A DNA stretch of 63,286 nt from Flavobacteriaceae bacterium PS02337. Lineage in GTDB: Bacteria > Bacteroidota > Bacteroidia > Flavobacteriales > Flavobacteriaceae. The notes beneath the pieces are model-generated. The model searched no databases and was not told the origin of the DNA. It was given only the letters and a program-made list of their open reading frames with translations. The stretch covers positions 1 to 63,286 of the forward strand of contig JASCOE010000021.1 in the NCBI GenBank assembly GCA_029959285.1, read 5' to 3'. Positions within the stretch are counted from its first letter, which is position 1, and every line of letters starts with the position of its first letter. Shown in pieces: positions 50,119 to 63,030 of this stretch. The translations under genes were made by a program, and so were the position numbers.

Positions 50119-50152
50119 TTTTTCAGCTATTGCATATCTTAAAGCTGAAAAA
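50119..50152. promoter_or_regulatory. 10-base inverted repeat in the hamA leader region
   Basis: TTTTTCAGCT (50119-50128) and AGCTGAAAAA (50143-50152) are exact reverse complements with a 14-base loop, 62 bases before hamA. No T-tract follows on the plus strand, so a regulatory site is more likely than a terminator. Confidence 0.45.
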
Positions 50153-50214
50153 GCATAAAAACACTTGTATCACTTTACAATCAATAAATTGATTAACCAA
50201 TTACCACACAAGCT

Positions 50215-51054
50215 ATGTCGTTACATGAAGATTTAATAGGGGCGCATCCATCTGCTCCCAATGAGTTCGCACGATGGCTGGACTGTTCTGATGTTGAGCC
50301 TACAGATCAAAGGTGCCATCGCTCCCTAACTGGTAAGATTCCTTCCAATAATGCACAGCTGGTCCAATGGCTGGCAGAGCGACTGGTCCATCACCACTAT
50401 GATCAGGTCAGGATTGACAGGTTAAAAAGGAAATACAGAGAAGCGGGATTTCCGCAATATGCAGAACAAAACAGAAACCTTCCGAGGGCAGATAGGACAA
50501 AAAAAGGAAACGCTACTGAAATACTATTGATCGAATACATAAAAAGCTGTCAGGGAAAACCTTTGTTACATGCCTTCAAACTTCGTTACAATCCCAATGT
50601 CGATCAAGCTGTAAAAGGTGACGATACCCTGCTGGTGGACATACTTACAAATAAAGCAGGAACGCAAAGTCTGAAAATATTCCTCGGAGAGGCAAAATTC
50701 AGAGGGCTGCCGGCTAAACAAGTAATAACCGATATTACTCAGTCTTTGGGAAAAGACAAACTTCCTTTGTCATTTTCCTACATGATCAGCGAACTCAGCC
50801 GAGATGCGGCCACAAAACCGACCGCAGACTTACTGGACAACTTTTTGATCAGCGAGATAAAATCAAAAGGCGATATAATCTATACAGGCCTTCTTCTGAG
50901 CAACACCGATACCCATACTACTGTGGAAAAACACCTGACCACCGATAATCCAGAACTGATATTCATATCAGCCGGCATTGACAATCCACAGGCGCTAATT
51001 GATGCGGCCTTTTTAATGGCCGAAGCAATGATTGATAATCCAGAAGCGCTATGA
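50215..51054 (+). CDS. hamA: Hachiman anti-phage protein HamA (DUF1837 nuclease)
   Basis: This 279-residue protein is the nuclease subunit of a Hachiman defence system. The DUF1837 core has a PD-(D/E)xK-type site: Asp142 in LLVDIL, then Glu159 and Lys161 in GEAKFRG. The preceding helix (GNATEILLIEYI) is also typical. HamA associates with the HamB helicase and degrades DNA when activated. Its stop overlaps the hamB start (ATGA), so the two are coupled. A 10-base inverted repeat precedes it. Confidence 0.85.
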   Translation: MSLHEDLIGAHPSAPNEFARWLDCSDVEPTDQRCHRSLTGKIPSNNAQLVQWLAERLVHHHYDQVRIDRLKRKYREAGFPQYAEQNRNLPRADRTKKGNATEILLIEYIKSCQGKPLLHAFKLRYNPNVDQAVKGDDTLLVDILTNKAGTQSLKIFLGEAKFRGLPAKQVITDITQSLGKDKLPLSFSYMISELSRDAATKPTADLLDNFLISEIKSKGDIIYTGLLLSNTDTHTTVEKHLTTDNPELIFISAGIDNPQALIDAAFLMAEAMIDNPEAL

Positions 51055-54000
51055 CAAACGAAATAATCAGGGAGAAGCTTTCCAAAATTGAAAGGGATGA
51101 AACCATTCAGAATCTTATCGCGCAAGCCAATGCGCGCTATATTTTATTAAATACCTCGGAAGACAGGGAAAACTTTCCACCCTATACCATTAACGATGAT
51201 AGCCTGAACATACTGGCGCTGTATTATCTTAATTTTGGGTGCTCATTTGCAGAAAATGAAAACTTCGCGGAAGCTATAGAACCTCTGGAAAAAGGCGCCT
51301 CACTACTAGAATTCGTACACAGTTCGGATTCTAATAAAGCCGGGACCAGTAATTATTACGGGCTGATTGCTGCACTCTCCTATTATGTAAGTTTTCAATA
51401 CTCGAAATCCTTTATACTTATCAAAAAATTTAGATCGGATTCTGTTATTGCAGGATTGATACATTTATTCCTTATGAGGGATTTTACTTCCTTGAGAAGA
51501 GAAATAAGCACCATGCTCATTGACGAGACGTACCAGGACTCCTATATTGCCGAAAACTTTGAGGAAGTTCAGGCACAACAGAAAATATATGAAATAATTA
51601 TAGCAAAAGCCCTGGATGCTTTTCTTAATTATTTTTATACTGGCAACCATGAAATGCTTCAGAAAGCAAAATTAATGCTGCGTAACCTTAAAGAAATAAC
51701 GGAACTCGAATCTGATCCTGGGATATGGTGGGTGGTGCGGTTACTGCTTCTCATCTCAGAAGGTTTCGGCCAAGCATCCCTATGGAATTGCCTTCATCCC
51801 TACTTTGATGTGGATGATGTACAGGTCAAGGGTTATATAAAATCCCTTGTCTACATGCAACCACGGGGAATTTATGAACTTTTTGTCACCCAGCGAAGAT
51901 CCATGGACAAGGTGCTACGCAATGAGAGCGGATGCATTGTCAGCATTCCTACCAGCAGCGGTAAAACCAGAATTGCCGAACTCTCTATATTAGACTGCCT
52001 TATAAAAGATCCAGACAATAAGGTCTTATACATTGCTCCTTTTCGTTCACTTGCTTTTGAGGTAGAAAATTCACTTGCACCCATTCTGGAGAATGCAGAC
52101 ATCTCGGTCTCGCACCTTTATGGCGGAAGCCTCTACAGCAAACTTGATGAAAAGGTAATCGAGGATTCCGATGTCATGATTGCCACCCCCGAAAAAGCAA
52201 AGGCTATACTTCGCGGAAACCAGGAACTCGTTGACTGCATAGCGCTTATAATCATTGATGAAGGCCATTTACTGGGACCGGAAAAAAGAAATGTCATAAA
52301 CGAAATGTTCTACGAAGAGCTTCGCTTTTATATGACCCAGAACGGCGGAAAGTTCCTGCTACTCTCAGCAGTCCTCCCTAATTCAGAAGAGCTTGCCCTA
52401 TGGCTTACAAAATCGGATCAGACCGTTTACAAGGACAAGTGGCGACCCTCTGATGAAAGGCTAGGTATACTGGAATGGAGTGGCCGTCTTGTCAATCTGA
52501 ACTGGATCAGCACAGATGAGGAAAGGGCATCATTTAACAGGCGCTTTATTGTAGCCGAGGAGTTGCCGCTTAAAAAACGGGAAAAGGTAGTTAAGACCAA
52601 TCCTGCAAATAAGAACGAAGCTGTAGCCGCTACAGCATATAAATTCAGAACATTTGGCTCCGTACTTATATTTGTCGGGCGCAAAGATTCTGTATTTGTA
52701 ATGGCAAGAGCTTACTTAAAAAGCCTAGGAAGCGGGCCAGCCGATCATGCCTGGAAAAATACGGCTGATTGGAGGGCATTTGAACTGGCATGTATGGAAA
52801 CCTACGGAGATGCCGGTAACTCCTGGCTCAATTTTGCACGTAAGGGAATACTCTGCCACAATGCCGATCTGCACTCCGATGTAAGGCTTCCTTTAGAAAG
52901 ACTTATGAGGGCAGATAAGCCTCTAGTAATAATAGCAACTTCAACCCTTGGACAGGGAGTAAATCTAGGTGTATCAACGGTTATCTTTTCAACTTTACGC
53001 CAAGCACGGTCAGAGATCTCTTCCAGAGATTTCTGGAATATCGCCGGAAGGGCCGGAAGGGCTTTTGTAGATCATGAAGGGAAAATACTTGTTGCTATGG
53101 AAACTGCCGGCAAATCACAGAGAACGGTTGCGGCTGAAGCAAGAGCCATTAGGAGAAAATATTTTGATAAGGAAAAAATCGACCACGCCAAGAGCGGCAT
53201 TATGCTGCTTATAAAGGAACTCATAGACGTTGCTGATGATAATGATATTGATTTTGACCTGCTACTGGAGCTCATTGCGGAGAACAGGACAGAGGAAATT
53301 GGCGAGCAAGCGCATGAAATTGACGCAAAATTGGATTGGATAGATGATACGCTCCTTACCCTGCAGACCCTGAATAATCCCACTGGAGAGATCGATCTTT
53401 CGTGGTCTGAATCTTTTTTTGCCGGATCCCTGGCCAGTATACAGGCTGAAAATGAAAGATCAATTTCTGCCGATCAGGTTTCAGAATTTTTAGGGGCCCG
53501 CATTAAGGGAATCATTGGAAAAGTAGGTGAAGATCGGGATACATGGAATATGATAGCCCGCTCGGGGCTGCCCTTAAATACGGACCTTATAATAGAAGAA
53601 AGACTCGATACCATTATTGGTCTGGTCCAAGGAACTTTCTTACGTGATTTTTCCAATGTTCAAACTAAAATTGATCTGCTGGCAGCCTTGGAAACTCTTC
53701 TCCAGGACCTGCCTGTACTGGTAGAAAATGGCAGTATCGTACAAAGCGCCTCAAAAGATGAGATAAGAAGCAAATGGCTCGTAGGGATTCCCCTGTCTGA
53801 AATTCTCCCATTGGAGAATGCCACTACAATTATCACCAAATTATACACTTTCAACCTTCCATGGATTTTAAACGGTATTGCTAAAAAAATGAGGGTATTG
53901 GAACTGGACGAGGAAGCGGAAAGAATAGAGGAGCTTTCCATACTTGTCGAGGCTGGACTTCCCTCACTTAAGAAGGTAAAAATATACCAGGCCGGAATAC

Positions 54001-54428
54001 GCTCACGTTCTGCCGCCGATGAACTTGGTGAACAGTTTGAAGATGATGATTGGGACAAAAGCGTCTATAGCTACAAGAGGGATCTTATTACAGGTGCCGA
54101 TGGTTACAAATTGATGGCTACTGCACATACTATAGAATGGCTTGAATTACTGGTAAGGGCTACTACCCGCAGGGACATTAAGGTTAAAAAAGTGCCGTCT
54201 TTTACTTTTGATGAAGTAAATTTGAATACTTCCACTTTAATAGCCCGACAGATAAACGGGGTCCAGTACCTGATGAGTCTGGATCTTCAGGTCATTGAAG
54301 ATGTTTCTAATAGCACAATTGATTTTACACCGGCGAACGACATACCTGGGATTGAATTTATATACAATGATTTTGATGAACTTTGGGAAATGCATGTTCA
54401 TAATCCCTATGTCCACCTAATTGACTAA
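51051..54428 (+). CDS. hamB: Hachiman anti-phage helicase HamB
   Basis: This 1125-residue superfamily 2 helicase is the sensor subunit of Hachiman. An N-terminal helical region of about 270 residues precedes Walker A PTSSGKT (Lys305). DEGH is at 403-406, motif III is LLLSAVLPNSEELA, motif V is TSTLGQGVNLG, and motif VI NIAGRAGRAF is at 663-672. A long C-terminal region of about 450 residues follows. HamB is thought to restrain HamA until it senses altered DNA. It starts inside hamA and its end touches the next gene, making a three-gene unit. Confidence 0.9.
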   Translation: MTNEIIREKLSKIERDETIQNLIAQANARYILLNTSEDRENFPPYTINDDSLNILALYYLNFGCSFAENENFAEAIEPLEKGASLLEFVHSSDSNKAGTSNYYGLIAALSYYVSFQYSKSFILIKKFRSDSVIAGLIHLFLMRDFTSLRREISTMLIDETYQDSYIAENFEEVQAQQKIYEIIIAKALDAFLNYFYTGNHEMLQKAKLMLRNLKEITELESDPGIWWVVRLLLLISEGFGQASLWNCLHPYFDVDDVQVKGYIKSLVYMQPRGIYELFVTQRRSMDKVLRNESGCIVSIPTSSGKTRIAELSILDCLIKDPDNKVLYIAPFRSLAFEVENSLAPILENADISVSHLYGGSLYSKLDEKVIEDSDVMIATPEKAKAILRGNQELVDCIALIIIDEGHLLGPEKRNVINEMFYEELRFYMTQNGGKFLLLSAVLPNSEELALWLTKSDQTVYKDKWRPSDERLGILEWSGRLVNLNWISTDEERASFNRRFIVAEELPLKKREKVVKTNPANKNEAVAATAYKFRTFGSVLIFVGRKDSVFVMARAYLKSLGSGPADHAWKNTADWRAFELACMETYGDAGNSWLNFARKGILCHNADLHSDVRLPLERLMRADKPLVIIATSTLGQGVNLGVSTVIFSTLRQARSEISSRDFWNIAGRAGRAFVDHEGKILVAMETAGKSQRTVAAEARAIRRKYFDKEKIDHAKSGIMLLIKELIDVADDNDIDFDLLLELIAENRTEEIGEQAHEIDAKLDWIDDTLLTLQTLNNPTGEIDLSWSESFFAGSLASIQAENERSISADQVSEFLGARIKGIIGKVGEDRDTWNMIARSGLPLNTDLIIEERLDTIIGLVQGTFLRDFSNVQTKIDLLAALETLLQDLPVLVENGSIVQSASKDEIRSKWLVGIPLSEILPLENATTIITKLYTFNLPWILNGIAKKMRVLELDEEAERIEELSILVEAGLPSLKKVKIYQAGIRSRSAADELGEQFEDDDWDKSVYSYKRDLITGADGYKLMATAHTIEWLELLVRATTRRDIKVKKVPSFTFDEVNLNTSTLIARQINGVQYLMSLDLQVIEDVSNSTIDFTPANDIPGIEFIYNDFDELWEMHVHNPYVHLID

Positions 54429-54447
54429 CAATTATTATAGCGTCCAA

Positions 54448-55572
54448 ATGAAAAATAGCAGCCCAGAAAAAGCAATGAAAAGCTTTAATTTTTTATTAAA
54501 AGACATTATCCCTGACGAAAATTATACTGAGCCATGGCAAGACGATGGCAATGGGACCAGATCCCTTAAAAGATTTAATATTGAACTGCCCGAGCATCTG
54601 AAAGTAAAACATCCTTTTATTATATACCTTCTATTTGTAGAGATTAAAAAATATCCGATCCTGCCCTTATTTGAAAAGGTCAAATGGGAAATTCCGATCT
54701 CCTATAAGAATCGGAGTTTTATATTAGCCCATAGAAAATTTGGATTTTCCATTTCAACCTATATCGAAAAGGACGACGACAAAAAGCTTGCCGCAGAAGT
54801 AATTACACTTATCCAAAAGGCGACACCGCTGACAGAAGGATTTGTACAGGAACTTATGAGCAAAAAAGTAAGCGTCGGAATGATTACAATTGATAATGAC
54901 TTTGTCAATATTTTGGGAAGATACTTTTTTTTCAGGCGCAAAGCATCCCAGGAGATTAAAGTAAACACCAAGAACAGGGAGGGCTTTTATTATATGCTTT
55001 CCATGATCGATGCCTACTTCAGCCTGCTTGAGCATTTGTTAGTGCTGCTTCTCCCCTTTATGAAACACGTGGATATGAAATCGATAGATCTTGAAAACTT
55101 TATTGGGTCAAACTGGAAAGTAAAATTCAATATAGTATTCGATACAAAGAATAACAGTACTTCTTTGAAACATCTGGCTAAACTCAACGAGATCAAAGAA
55201 CAGATCAGAAACCCTGCCTCACACGGAAATTTCCTAAAGAAGGGAAGCTCGTTTTATGTCCACATGGATAATCTAGGTGCAATTCCATTTACGCTTACCA
55301 AATCAAAAACAGATGCTAAATACAGTTTCGAGGATAATTCAGAAATAGCATTTAAAAATATAATTGATGAATTTGGTTCATTTGATTCCTATCTGCGGAC
55401 TGATCCCAGGACCATATATGCAATGCAATATATATTGCGGGGACTTCCTGTTTTCTATGATAAAAAGTCTGTTTCAACTTACAGTAGAAGAATGGTAAGC
55501 CAGCAATCTACTGAAAGATATATCAATGAAACAATTAGGGAGATAGAAAACCATATGAATATGGACTGGTAG
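54448..55572 (+). CDS. HEPN-motif protein in the Hachiman operon
   Basis: This protein of 374 residues carries a HEPN signature: RNPASHG with Arg254 and His259 (R-x4-H), preceded by a helix LEHLLVLLLPF. HEPN domains with this motif are often RNases in defence and toxin-antitoxin systems. The rest is unfamiliar; no membrane segment is present. I start at ATG 54448, 20 bases after the hamB stop. A TTG at 54421 would overlap hamB and add nine residues. Close coupling suggests a third Hachiman component or an added effector. Confidence 0.75.
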   Translation: MKNSSPEKAMKSFNFLLKDIIPDENYTEPWQDDGNGTRSLKRFNIELPEHLKVKHPFIIYLLFVEIKKYPILPLFEKVKWEIPISYKNRSFILAHRKFGFSISTYIEKDDDKKLAAEVITLIQKATPLTEGFVQELMSKKVSVGMITIDNDFVNILGRYFFFRRKASQEIKVNTKNREGFYYMLSMIDAYFSLLEHLLVLLLPFMKHVDMKSIDLENFIGSNWKVKFNIVFDTKNNSTSLKHLAKLNEIKEQIRNPASHGNFLKKGSSFYVHMDNLGAIPFTLTKSKTDAKYSFEDNSEIAFKNIIDEFGSFDSYLRTDPRTIYAMQYILRGLPVFYDKKSVSTYSRRMVSQQSTERYINETIREIENHMNMDW

Positions 55573-55819
55573 ACTAAAATCAACAACATAAATAATCTTT
55601 GATAAACTGTAAAACATATCTGATAAACTAAGACTGAAAAGTCATATTTAAATTTACCTATTCTCCGTCTTGTCAAAATAAAATAACCTCCAATTTATCC
55701 TGTTTCAAAAATGAAAAATTCCGACAAAACGTTATAAATAGAAAGTAGAAAAACTCTATTTTTACCGTTTGTTGTCCAAAACGGACCTAATTTACCAGAT
55801 TGAACATTAATAGAAGATT
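55573..55819. other. Spacer with CCGTTT/AAACGG inverted repeat
   Basis: This 247-base gap has no gene. It holds ACAAAACGTTAT, which resembles a cassette end, and the imperfect inverted repeat CCGTTTGTTGTCCAAAACGG (55765-55784), 36 bases before the next start. The latter is a candidate operator. Confidence 0.4.
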
Positions 55820-57061
55820 ATGCACAGTAAATACATTTTTTTAGATACGAATAACTGGATATATCTGTCAAATGGATTTGATATTTACGCTCGAAAACAC
55901 AGCGATCTTTCATTTAAGATATTTGAAATTATTAAAAAACGAGTAGAGGAAAATAGTCTTAATTTTTTGACAAACAATATTGTTCTGGATGAATGGGAAC
56001 GAAATAAATCGCAGGCATCCCTGCAAATTAAAGAACTCGAAAAAAAAATCAACGGACACAGAGGAAACCTCAAATCTATGCGTGAATTTATTTCTGATAA
56101 AAATGATTGTGTAGAATTAGAAAATTTAAGCAAGTTACTTGAGGAAAAGTATAATGAGAAAGTAAAAAAACATAAAAATCACATAGAAAATGTAGATCAT
56201 TTCTTAAAGAACAGTACAGTAATAATCCCTATTTCTGATCTCTCAAAAATAGAAGCCTCCGATTTAGCTCTTAAGAAAAAGGCCCCTTTCATTGGAGATA
56301 AGCAGAACAGCATGGCTGATGCTTTGATATTACTCAGCTCAATAGAATATATTTACGAAAATTACAGATATTCATATACTGATCTAGGAAGCATCGAAGA
56401 TACTGCTTATTTTCCTGAAACATTTTTTGTATCAAGCAATAATGGTGATTTCTGTTCTCCCAACGACCGCGAGATTATTCATCCGGATCTAGAAGTATAC
56501 TTAATGAAAACAAATACTAAATTTTTCTTTTCCTTAGGCAAGCTGATAAATTCATTAGAAGAAGAATTCTTGACTGTTGAAGAGCAGTTTGAGCTTGATC
56601 ACATTATTTATATAATGCAATGTGAGAACTGCTATCTCAATGCTCTTGAGTTCTCAGATTACTTCGAAATCTTTAATCCAAATAAGTTCTACGCAGATAA
56701 AAATCAGTATTTAATGGATTTTGACGGGCATCTCGATGATCCGCAACTTTCAGAAGCAAAATCACCTATGATAAATCTTCGGGCAGCAGAATGTACAAAT
56801 TGCTTTACGCAGTATATCGAGTGCGAGTGTGGTGAAATGACTGAAGTTACTGAAGAAAATATTATTTTTGAATGCCAAGGTAATTGTGGTCTTCATTTTA
56901 GGGCTAATGCAGATTGTAATCCAAAAGGTATAACAGTTGATGTAAATTATGAAATTGTCAAATTATATCGGTGTATAACATGCCTATTTGACTTTGAATT
57001 CATCGACAGTTCAGGAAGTTGTAATGAATGCACTGAATATAACAGCAAAATTGATGACTAG
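55820..57061 (+). CDS. PIN-like nuclease with multiple cysteine pairs
   Basis: This 413-residue protein starts with a PIN-like domain: Asp9 in FLDTNNWIYL, acidic residues in NIVLDEWE (about 56-60), Asp160 and Asp167 in GDKQNSMADALIL, and SSNNGDF (204-211). A helical coil lies between. The C-terminal region (about 265-405) holds at least 13 cysteines, mostly in pairs (CENC, CTNC, CEC, CQGNC, CITC, CNEC), suggesting zinc ribbons for RNA or protein binding. PIN domains are usually RNases. It stands alone after the Hachiman operon, with an inverted repeat upstream and two hairpins downstream. Confidence 0.72.
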   Translation: MHSKYIFLDTNNWIYLSNGFDIYARKHSDLSFKIFEIIKKRVEENSLNFLTNNIVLDEWERNKSQASLQIKELEKKINGHRGNLKSMREFISDKNDCVELENLSKLLEEKYNEKVKKHKNHIENVDHFLKNSTVIIPISDLSKIEASDLALKKKAPFIGDKQNSMADALILLSSIEYIYENYRYSYTDLGSIEDTAYFPETFFVSSNNGDFCSPNDREIIHPDLEVYLMKTNTKFFFSLGKLINSLEEEFLTVEEQFELDHIIYIMQCENCYLNALEFSDYFEIFNPNKFYADKNQYLMDFDGHLDDPQLSEAKSPMINLRAAECTNCFTQYIECECGEMTEVTEENIIFECQGNCGLHFRANADCNPKGITVDVNYEIVKLYRCITCLFDFEFIDSSGSCNECTEYNSKIDD

Positions 57062-57716: not shown

Positions 57717-58574
57717 ATGAGAACAATTCAACATATTATTGATACAAAAGCAGTTAAACAGGTTTTTAATTCTATTCCTGAACATTGTGTAATTAGGGAA
57801 TTAACAGAACGTGATTATGGAATTGACTTAATGTTAGAACTTTTTGAAGAAGATGGATTTGATGACAAGAAGAACCCGATTTATACATCTTCTGGTCACG
57901 TCTGCTATCTTCAGCTAAAAGGAACTGATTCTAAAAAAAAAGTTAATAAAAAGGATGGAACAATAAGCTATTCAATTGATAAGAAAAGTTTATTAAATGT
58001 TGAAAAGTACGCAACACCATTTATTCTTACCAGGGTTTATACTAATTCTTTAAATAATGAAATATATTTCCTGTGGCTTCAAAGATATATAAGTGAAGTT
58101 TTAGATGTGATGAATCCGAATTGGAGAACCGAAAAACCTAATTCTGTCACACTTTATATTCCTTTGAAGAATGATTTTAATATATATTTTAAAAAAATTG
58201 AAGTAATTGCATCCAGAATAAAATACATTGAAGAGTTATCTGAATATTGTGAAAAGTATATAGACATCACAATGGGCTTAAAAACTATTATTTTAGCAAA
58301 GGGAAAAGTAGATTTTTACGCACACATATTGACTGAGTTGAATCGTTTGTCCAAGTTAAATACTTTGCTTAAAAGGAATAATTGTTGCATTGACAAAAGT
58401 TGTATAATTGATTTAATTAATTATATTAACCAGATAGAAAAAGGCTTAGTTGTACCGAAAGTTATGGAAGATTATCCACACAACTATAATTTGGATTTAC
58501 TTAGTACTTCAAATCAATCTTCAATATCAATAGAGAATTTTATTGCAGAAAATGAAGATGATACAGTTTATTAA
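57717..58574 (+). CDS. DUF4365-family nuclease-like protein
   Basis: This 285-residue protein has the DUF4365 pattern of a PD-(D/E)xK-like fold: ERDYGIDLMLELF (Asp37, Glu41) followed by a strand with YLQLKGT (Gln66, Lys68). DUF4365 domains occur in defence islands and are thought to be DNA-acting nucleases. The C-terminal half is helical and unfamiliar. It is a single-gene unit with 263 bases upstream and 151 downstream. The catalytic claim is inferred from motif spacing. Confidence 0.72.
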   Translation: MRTIQHIIDTKAVKQVFNSIPEHCVIRELTERDYGIDLMLELFEEDGFDDKKNPIYTSSGHVCYLQLKGTDSKKKVNKKDGTISYSIDKKSLLNVEKYATPFILTRVYTNSLNNEIYFLWLQRYISEVLDVMNPNWRTEKPNSVTLYIPLKNDFNIYFKKIEVIASRIKYIEELSEYCEKYIDITMGLKTIILAKGKVDFYAHILTELNRLSKLNTLLKRNNCCIDKSCIIDLINYINQIEKGLVVPKVMEDYPHNYNLDLLSTSNQSSISIENFIAENEDDTVY

Positions 58575-61243: not shown

Positions 61244-61966
61244 ATGAAACATTATTCAATTTGTTTTGAATGTTCAGATTTAAAGCCGGACAATTTTGTA
61301 TATTCAATTGGAGAAGTCGAATCGGATCTTGTAGTCCTTTGCACTTGTCCTTTTGGACATAAAACTGTGGTGAGAATTACGCATAATTTATGTGATGTTT
61401 TATATTCATCTGCCGTCTATGCGTTTACGCAAGATTGTTTATCAGAAAGTGTAATGAGTTTCGCTGCAGCGTTAGAAAGAGCATATGAAATGTTTACTAA
61501 AGTTACATTGTATGCTGAAGGGTTAAAATACGACCAAATAGATGAATTTTGGAAGGAACTTTCCAGTCAATCAGAAAGGCAATATGGGGCGTTCTGTACA
61601 CAGTATTTAAAAACTAAAAAGGAACCTTGGAAAATAGATTCTAAAATGATTCAATTTAGAAATAAGGTCGTCCATAAAGGTCATATCGCTTCTACAGATG
61701 AAGTTACAAAATATGCCAACTACATCACCAATGTATTATACAAAATACTTAAAAATCTACACGAAAATTACCAAAATGAGAGTACGGAATATTATTTTCA
61801 CGAAACGGCAAAAACTAAAGTAAAAGTAAAGGAATTAAGAATAAAGCATAATGCTAAACTTGGTGGTTCATCAATAATTTCACTTTTAAATTGGAATGTA
61901 ATGGATATGCCACAAGTGACATTTTCAGAAGCATTAAGAATCATGACCCAAATGCAAAGAATCTAA
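61244..61966 (+). CDS. HEPN-motif protein with cysteine-rich N-terminus
   Basis: This 240-residue protein has cysteine/histidine pairs near the N-terminus (CFEC at 7-10, CTCPFGH at 33-39), suggesting a small zinc site. The middle helices (FAAALERAYEMFTKV) lead to the HEPN motif RNKVVHKG (Arg139, His144). This R-x4-H signature is typical of HEPN RNases. The tail is charged. It is a single-gene unit, directly before an Mrr-like nuclease. Target and trigger are unknown. Confidence 0.7.
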   Translation: MKHYSICFECSDLKPDNFVYSIGEVESDLVVLCTCPFGHKTVVRITHNLCDVLYSSAVYAFTQDCLSESVMSFAAALERAYEMFTKVTLYAEGLKYDQIDEFWKELSSQSERQYGAFCTQYLKTKKEPWKIDSKMIQFRNKVVHKGHIASTDEVTKYANYITNVLYKILKNLHENYQNESTEYYFHETAKTKVKVKELRIKHNAKLGGSSIISLLNWNVMDMPQVTFSEALRIMTQMQRI

Positions 61967-62124: not shown

Positions 62125-63030
62125 ATGATTGACTTTAAAGAGATTGACCAAGATGGAGAAGTATGGGAATTTTTTGCGCGCGATTTTTTGCAAGAAATCG
62201 GCTATTATGTTGAGACAACGGTAGATCGTGGACCCGACGGAAAAAAGGATTTAATTGTCTCCGAGCACTTAAAAGGAAACTTAGGAAATTACAAATTTAA
62301 ATGGCTTGTCAGCTGCAAACATTTTGCAAATCGCGCTAGTAGTAATTCAGTTAAAGAAGTAGATGAACCAAATATTCTTGAAAGAATTGAAGCCTTTAAT
62401 TGTGATGGTTTTATTGGTTTTTATTCAACTATTTCCTCTTCTGGGTTAAATACCAGACTTACTCAGTTAAAGGACAACCAAAAAATAAAAGATTACAGAA
62501 TATTTGATCACAAGTTAATTGAAAATTATTTGATACGAATTGGGTATTCTGACTTGCTTATGCGCTACTTTCCAGAGAGCTACAAAAACATAAAACCTTT
62601 ACATCTAATTACAGACAACTATATTCCTTTAAATTGTAAAACTTGCGGTATAGATATACTTCAAGAAATGTATAAAAACCAATATCATGCAAATTATGTT
62701 CAGGTTTACAGCAATGGTCTAAATGGTTCAGAACACATACAAGACGTTTTTTCTGTTTGCAAAGGGCCATGTGATGACGTTAGGAGTAGAAATTTACAGA
62801 CAGGATTTTATACAAACTGGCAAGACATCGGCGATATAATTATTCCTAGTAAATTTATCCAATGGACTATGACTACTTTGAACTTAATCCGATCTCGGCA
62901 AAACACTTATGACGATGCAGCATTCAAAAAAGAAAAGGAATTTATTATAGCCATTTCGCAAAAAGTAGTGCGAGAAATGACTCAAGAAGAAAGAAACAGA
63001 GTTGGAACATTAAGAGATTATGGATTGTAA
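62125..63030 (+). CDS. Mrr-like restriction endonuclease
   Basis: This 301-residue protein has an N-terminal Mrr-type PD-(D/E)xK domain: GEVWEFFARDFLQEIGYYV (helix), GPDGKKDLIV (Asp38 or Asp42) and WLVSCKHF (Lys65). The position usually held by Glu or Gln two residues before the lysine is Ser63 here, as seen in some family members. The later segment NILERIEAFNCDGFIGFYST is also family-like. The C-terminal part has CKTC and CKGPC. It probably cuts modified or foreign DNA. Confidence 0.78.
   Translation: MIDFKEIDQDGEVWEFFARDFLQEIGYYVETTVDRGPDGKKDLIVSEHLKGNLGNYKFKWLVSCKHFANRASSNSVKEVDEPNILERIEAFNCDGFIGFYSTISSSGLNTRLTQLKDNQKIKDYRIFDHKLIENYLIRIGYSDLLMRYFPESYKNIKPLHLITDNYIPLNCKTCGIDILQEMYKNQYHANYVQVYSNGLNGSEHIQDVFSVCKGPCDDVRSRNLQTGFYTNWQDIGDIIIPSKFIQWTMTTLNLIRSRQNTYDDAAFKKEKEFIIAISQKVVREMTQEERNRVGTLRDYGL

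Follow-up and report, generated by a model that had tools for sequence, protein, structure and literature searches.

Does a third gene placed tightly behind the two genes of a Hachiman defence system belong to that system, or does it only travel with it? The question is raised by a locus of Flavobacteriaceae bacterium PS02337, lying in a stretch of 63,286 nucleotides (hereafter the window; JASCOE010000021.1, one contig, C13, of a 5.7-Mb genome), in which hamA and hamB are followed on the same strand by a gene for a protein with the motif of HEPN ribonucleases (RNases) (Table 1). The explanation that fits best, and to which we would give an even chance, is a canonical Hachiman system with which a mobile, probably catalytic RNase effector is co-expressed, as a plug-in rather than as a required part.

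The Hachiman pair itself is complete. HamB is a DNA-damage sensor and HamA a nuclease in the account of PMC12278908, and here a HamA-family protein with a single Pfam domain adjoins a HamB-family SF2 helicase in which both the Pfam DEAD and Helicase_C domains are matched. Both proteins are full-length. HamA retains the D-GEXK nuclease motif (PMC12799240), the upstream D aligning, like the GEAK, in 8/8 HamA sequences. As the original prediction had it, hamA and hamB share four bases (ATGA) and a 374-residue reading frame starts fewer than 20 bases past the hamB stop codon. It had also allowed for a TTG start overlapping hamB; such an in-frame TTG exists (position 54421, giving 383 residues), but the copy of the gene in Flavobacterium potami has GTC there while keeping the 19-nt spacing to the ATG, and the ATG is the likelier start because the TTG is not conserved. 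A scan of the + strand of this operon-like gap gave neither a promoter-like nor a terminator-like match.

The third protein most likely is a catalytic, metal-independent endoRNase of the HEPN family. The rule given for HEPN motifs is R-x4-6H with a polar residue following the R (PMC3710099), and the RNPASHG motif with Arg254 and His259, singled out in the original prediction, conforms to it. An R-x4-H match by itself would mean little; its weight here comes from conservation, since S192, E195, R254, H259 and G260 are invariant, and the polar N255 nearly so, in 38/38 aligned sequences. These comprise 36 loci out of the 44 from a genome scan (the other eight being near-duplicates or having broken frames), a single locus from a viral contig and the window itself. 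In structure comparison the best matches of the C-terminal half are mostly HEPN proteins, with modest Z scores, and the N-terminal alpha/beta domain may bind nucleic acid. No known sequence family was matched in PADLOC, Pfam, NCBIfam or PHROGs (in Pfam at E <= 1 only RED_N appears, at 0.03), nor did a profile search of the PDB return any chain at E <= 1.

The hamA-hamB-HEPN trio recurs once, in F. potami, as a discrete block that begins 66 nt before hamA, stops 7 nt past the HEPN stop codon and has other flanks there. F. potami also has, at 69-72%, the nearby backbone of conjugative type (window 41.7-47.9 kb); the block is oriented opposite to this backbone, and the flanking genes differ. In F. 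potami a fourth same-strand gene (L019 10174-10977) follows 48 nt past the HEPN gene; its product, matching Hypoth_Ymh / PD-Lambda-3_B, itself bears an RNPKAH motif.

The history of the block is not uniform along its length. Between the window and F. potami, identical codons are used for the same amino acid at 51% of positions in hamA, 52% in hamB and 72% in the third gene; the synonymous distance dS is 3.7, 2.4 (both saturated) and 0.74, and dN/dS, the ratio of the nonsynonymous distance to it, is 0.04, 0.06 and 0.12, respectively. Synonymous identity, taken with Met and Trp left out, is 0.482 before hamB codon 957 and 0.690 after it, the higher level continuing across the HEPN gene; this change point is reached by 0/1000 permutations (7/1000 for hamB alone). 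A crossover in hamB therefore took the third gene along, and the 3′ end of hamB (the last ~170 codons) and the HEPN gene have a younger common ancestor than the remainder of hamAB. Such joint exchange means that linkage was kept through recombination, and is not by itself proof of interaction.

Co-occurrence speaks against a conserved component of Hachiman. Nine related hamB loci have at least 1.4 kb of sequence after hamB, and the HEPN gene is present in the window and F. potami and absent from the other seven (L015, L064, L069, L081, L008, L016 and L017), whose HamB is 32-66% identical to that of the window. As F. potami had been located through its HEPN gene, the unbiased count from the hamAB side is 0/7, and the conserved downstream HEPN gene looked for among hamB homologues on the strength of the original prediction did not materialize. 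In eight hamB loci that are less closely related (L010-L014, L066-L068), the little sequence available after hamB yielded no HEPN match; for plasmids, the best 3 of 82 matching hamB records were examined. In a sample of 399 genomes of the genus, which appears to be Flavobacterium since several matches in the sample repeat the match figures of named Flavobacterium loci, hamB (E <= 1e-50) and the HEPN family (E <= 1e-5) are found in six each, and together solely in the genome of the window; in the five further genomes with the HEPN family there is no HamA or HamB within 1.5 kb. What follows hamB seems to differ between loci. In L064, where hamAB is 57% identical, a gene for an RlaP-type (RNA repair) nucleotidyltransferase (384-1496) overlaps the end of hamB by 11 nt.

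From the HEPN side, only 2 of the 44 genome-scan homologues have hamAB nearby, with at least 6.9 kb of sequence before the HEPN gene in 36 of them and less in eight. In F. potami hamAB lies directly upstream; in the other, from Mesorhizobium (L043), a hamA and a hamB of other subfamilies lie ~0.9 kb upstream, a proximity that could be chance within a defence island. The remaining 42 genome-scan loci, five plasmid loci and the viral locus gave no HamA or HamB match. Phage records gave no match to the third protein; viral contigs gave none with the single-protein query and one, to the HEPN family, with the alignment, and a HamB search of these contigs none.

Table 1. Features of the hamAB-HEPN locus, in window coordinates.
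Feature	Position	Strand	Support or remark
Block common to window and F. potami (L019 4696-10134)	50149..55579	+	76% DNA identity, 5461 columns
hamA, effector nuclease of Hachiman, 279 aa	50215..51054	+	PDLC00155 1.4e-84; Pfam HamA PF08878 7.2e-16
GEAK of HamA D-GEXK nuclease motif, intact	50686..50697	+	GE[AS]KFR in 8/8 aligned HamA
hamB, Ski2-like sensor helicase of Hachiman, 1125 aa	51051..54428	+	PDLC00192 E=0, 1346.8 bits; DEAD 3.6e-24
Inferred recombination breakpoint interval, hamB codons 935-985, best 957	53853..54005	+	synonymous-identity change point vs F. potami
Gap between hamB and HEPN gene, 19 nt	54429..54447	+	F. potami gap equally long
Third gene, 374-aa HEPN-family protein, probable endoRNase (predicted)	54448..55572	+
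N-terminal alpha/beta domain, residues 1-145	54448..54882	+
Helical region with HEPN-like matches, residues 147-333	54886..55446	+
RNPASHG motif, residues 254-260	55207..55227	+
PIN_12-domain protein, another possible RNase	55820-57061		247 nt after HEPN gene

What the family has beside it elsewhere was surveyed in 19 of 50 homologue loci (44 from the genome scan, five plasmid, one viral), chosen for close or large neighbours. A defence-type neighbour is found in 13 of the 19, with no such match among the neighbours in the other six (L021, L027, L039, L051, L057 and L058). Gabija genes lie ~220 nt downstream in L004 and, on the other strand, upstream in L055; a GajB-like helicase (L029), an OLD-like gene (L003) and an AriA-like gene (L018) stand beside the homologue, a SduA-domain (Shedu-like) protein is encoded 99 nt downstream in L050 and PDC-S06 16 nt upstream in L044, and GmrSD domains (L020), a RES-domain gene (L037), Fic (L046) and PDC-S31 (L059) are found nearby; the downstream Hypoth_Ymh / PD-Lambda-3_B gene of F. 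potami belongs to the same list. The family is unnamed and broadly distributed, and its members occur alongside several unrelated defence systems. The cargo region around the locus in the window also looks rich in defence-type genes. A second HEPN-like gene (61244-61966) matches Pfam HEPN_RiboL-PSP at 2.3e-4 and HEPN_MAE_28990 at 4e-4, neither reaching the curated cut-off, and there are a DUF4365 domain (57717-58574) and an Mrr-type restriction nuclease domain (62125-63030).

Three-gene forms of Hachiman are already known, but the present one differs from each, as it does from most of the relatives examined, which have no third same-strand gene like that found 19 nt past hamB. In type II the third gene adjoining hamAB is HamC, a DUF3223 protein (PMC8565338); the protein here is larger and does not match DUF3223, and identity with HamC can be rejected. 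HamMAB, in which HamAB is rewired to activate the separately encoded nuclease HamM, likewise joins a mobile extra nuclease to HamAB, and HamM is described as recurrently taken up by unrelated systems (PMC12799240). In that account HamM is an MBL-fold DNase encoded upstream and activated by a protease-HamA that has lost D-GEXK. The present HamA, by contrast, is of the canonical type, a protease was not found, the additional gene lies downstream and encodes a HEPN-type protein, and the gene before hamA has a GNAT-like product, so that HamM was rejected too. The RnlA family (RNase LS, LsoA), with a C-terminal HEPN-like half and an N-terminal alpha/beta part, is among the best structure matches. 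However, hhalign against the single K-12 RnlA sequence gave a probability of 0.1 and E 0.39 with the motif out of register, and no RnlB-type or other antitoxin-sized gene adjoins the third gene, which has hamB upstream and the PIN_12 gene downstream; a close relation was therefore not accepted. AbpAB of Escherichia coli K-12, described as a Hachiman variant (PMC12278908), has the HEPN toxin pair rnlAB as a neighbour ~0.8 kb away (both within L080 3352-9356), although rnlA is encoded on the opposite strand and has its own antitoxin. In the main texts of the non-subscription papers searched, PMC12839542 included, no Hachiman system was met whose third gene is of HEPN type.

Could the third gene nevertheless be a true component, such that detection of DNA ends or damage would lead HamB to activate both the HEPN RNase and HamA directly, through a contact of the HamB C-terminal part? 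The tight operon, the same block in two genomes with differing flanks, the joint movement of the last ~170 hamB codons with the HEPN gene, the ability of HamAB to be rewired to a separate nuclease (PMC12799240) and the family member near the distant Mesorhizobium HamAB would all fit. The joint exchange may, however, be mere physical linkage, a hamB crossover dragging the next gene; in Mesorhizobium an HTH gene intervenes, and both hamA and hamB are broken into two frames each; and the gene is missing from the seven other related hamAB loci, most family members being without hamAB. The original prediction of a variant whose second effector answers to the same sensor is partly supported: it gains from the F. 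potami block and the history shared with the hamB 3′ end and loses from the counts of 0/7 and 2/44; we regard direct activation as possible but unlikely. Quite doubtful is a wider version, in which the family would be a general plug-in RNase of unrelated DNA-sensing systems (Hachiman, Gabija, Shedu-like, OLD/AriA-like). In Hachiman it would then be coupled to the HamB C-terminal part and would have been exchanged with it as a working unit, so that a single sensor commands a DNase arm as well as an RNase arm.

At the other extreme, the gene may have nothing but the transcript in common with hamAB and be a defence or toxin gene in its own right, with its own sensing or with distant or host-encoded control. 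Homologues mostly without hamAB, beside unrelated systems or alone, and the lack of an antitoxin-sized gene in the locus would agree with this, but the 19-nt spacing and the exact three-gene block in two genomes make pure accident less likely, and we consider a gene with no tie to Hachiman improbable. Still further from likely is a HEPN protein that lacks catalysis, binds RNA or a partner protein, and modulates HamAB in the manner of an inhibitor or an adaptor: certain HEPN domains are non-catalytic, but these usually lose R-x4-6H (PMC3710099), and here both residues are kept throughout.

We therefore return to the plug-in effector beside a canonical Hachiman. In other Hachiman systems HamB monitors DNA and frees HamA for DNA cutting. 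Here, a complete pair carried on a Flavobacterium mobile element would work in the same way, HamB monitoring DNA and then freeing HamA to cut it, and would have recruited the HEPN protein into its transcription unit as an extra effector. Since HamA is intact, the third protein is best viewed as an addition to Hachiman. Made together with HamAB, it would act beside them as a second, RNA-directed effector that stops growth, its trigger being either its own or the damage caused by HamAB. What was observed is the gene order, the operon-like spacing, the conservation of the motif, the recurrent block and the scattered occurrence of the family; co-transcription, RNase activity, a part in defence and independence from HamAB are inferred from these. 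The scattered distribution of the family favours such a self-sufficient module over control by HamB, which, by analogy with HamM (PMC12799240), is possible.

Should the protein be an RNase controlled by HamB, a DNase arm and an RNase arm would both answer to a single DNA-damage sensor, and the hamB breakpoint would mark the region of HamB that is of interest. If it is not under such control, the locus still adds an unnamed, widespread HEPN family found near unrelated defence systems, a lead towards a shared suicide effector.
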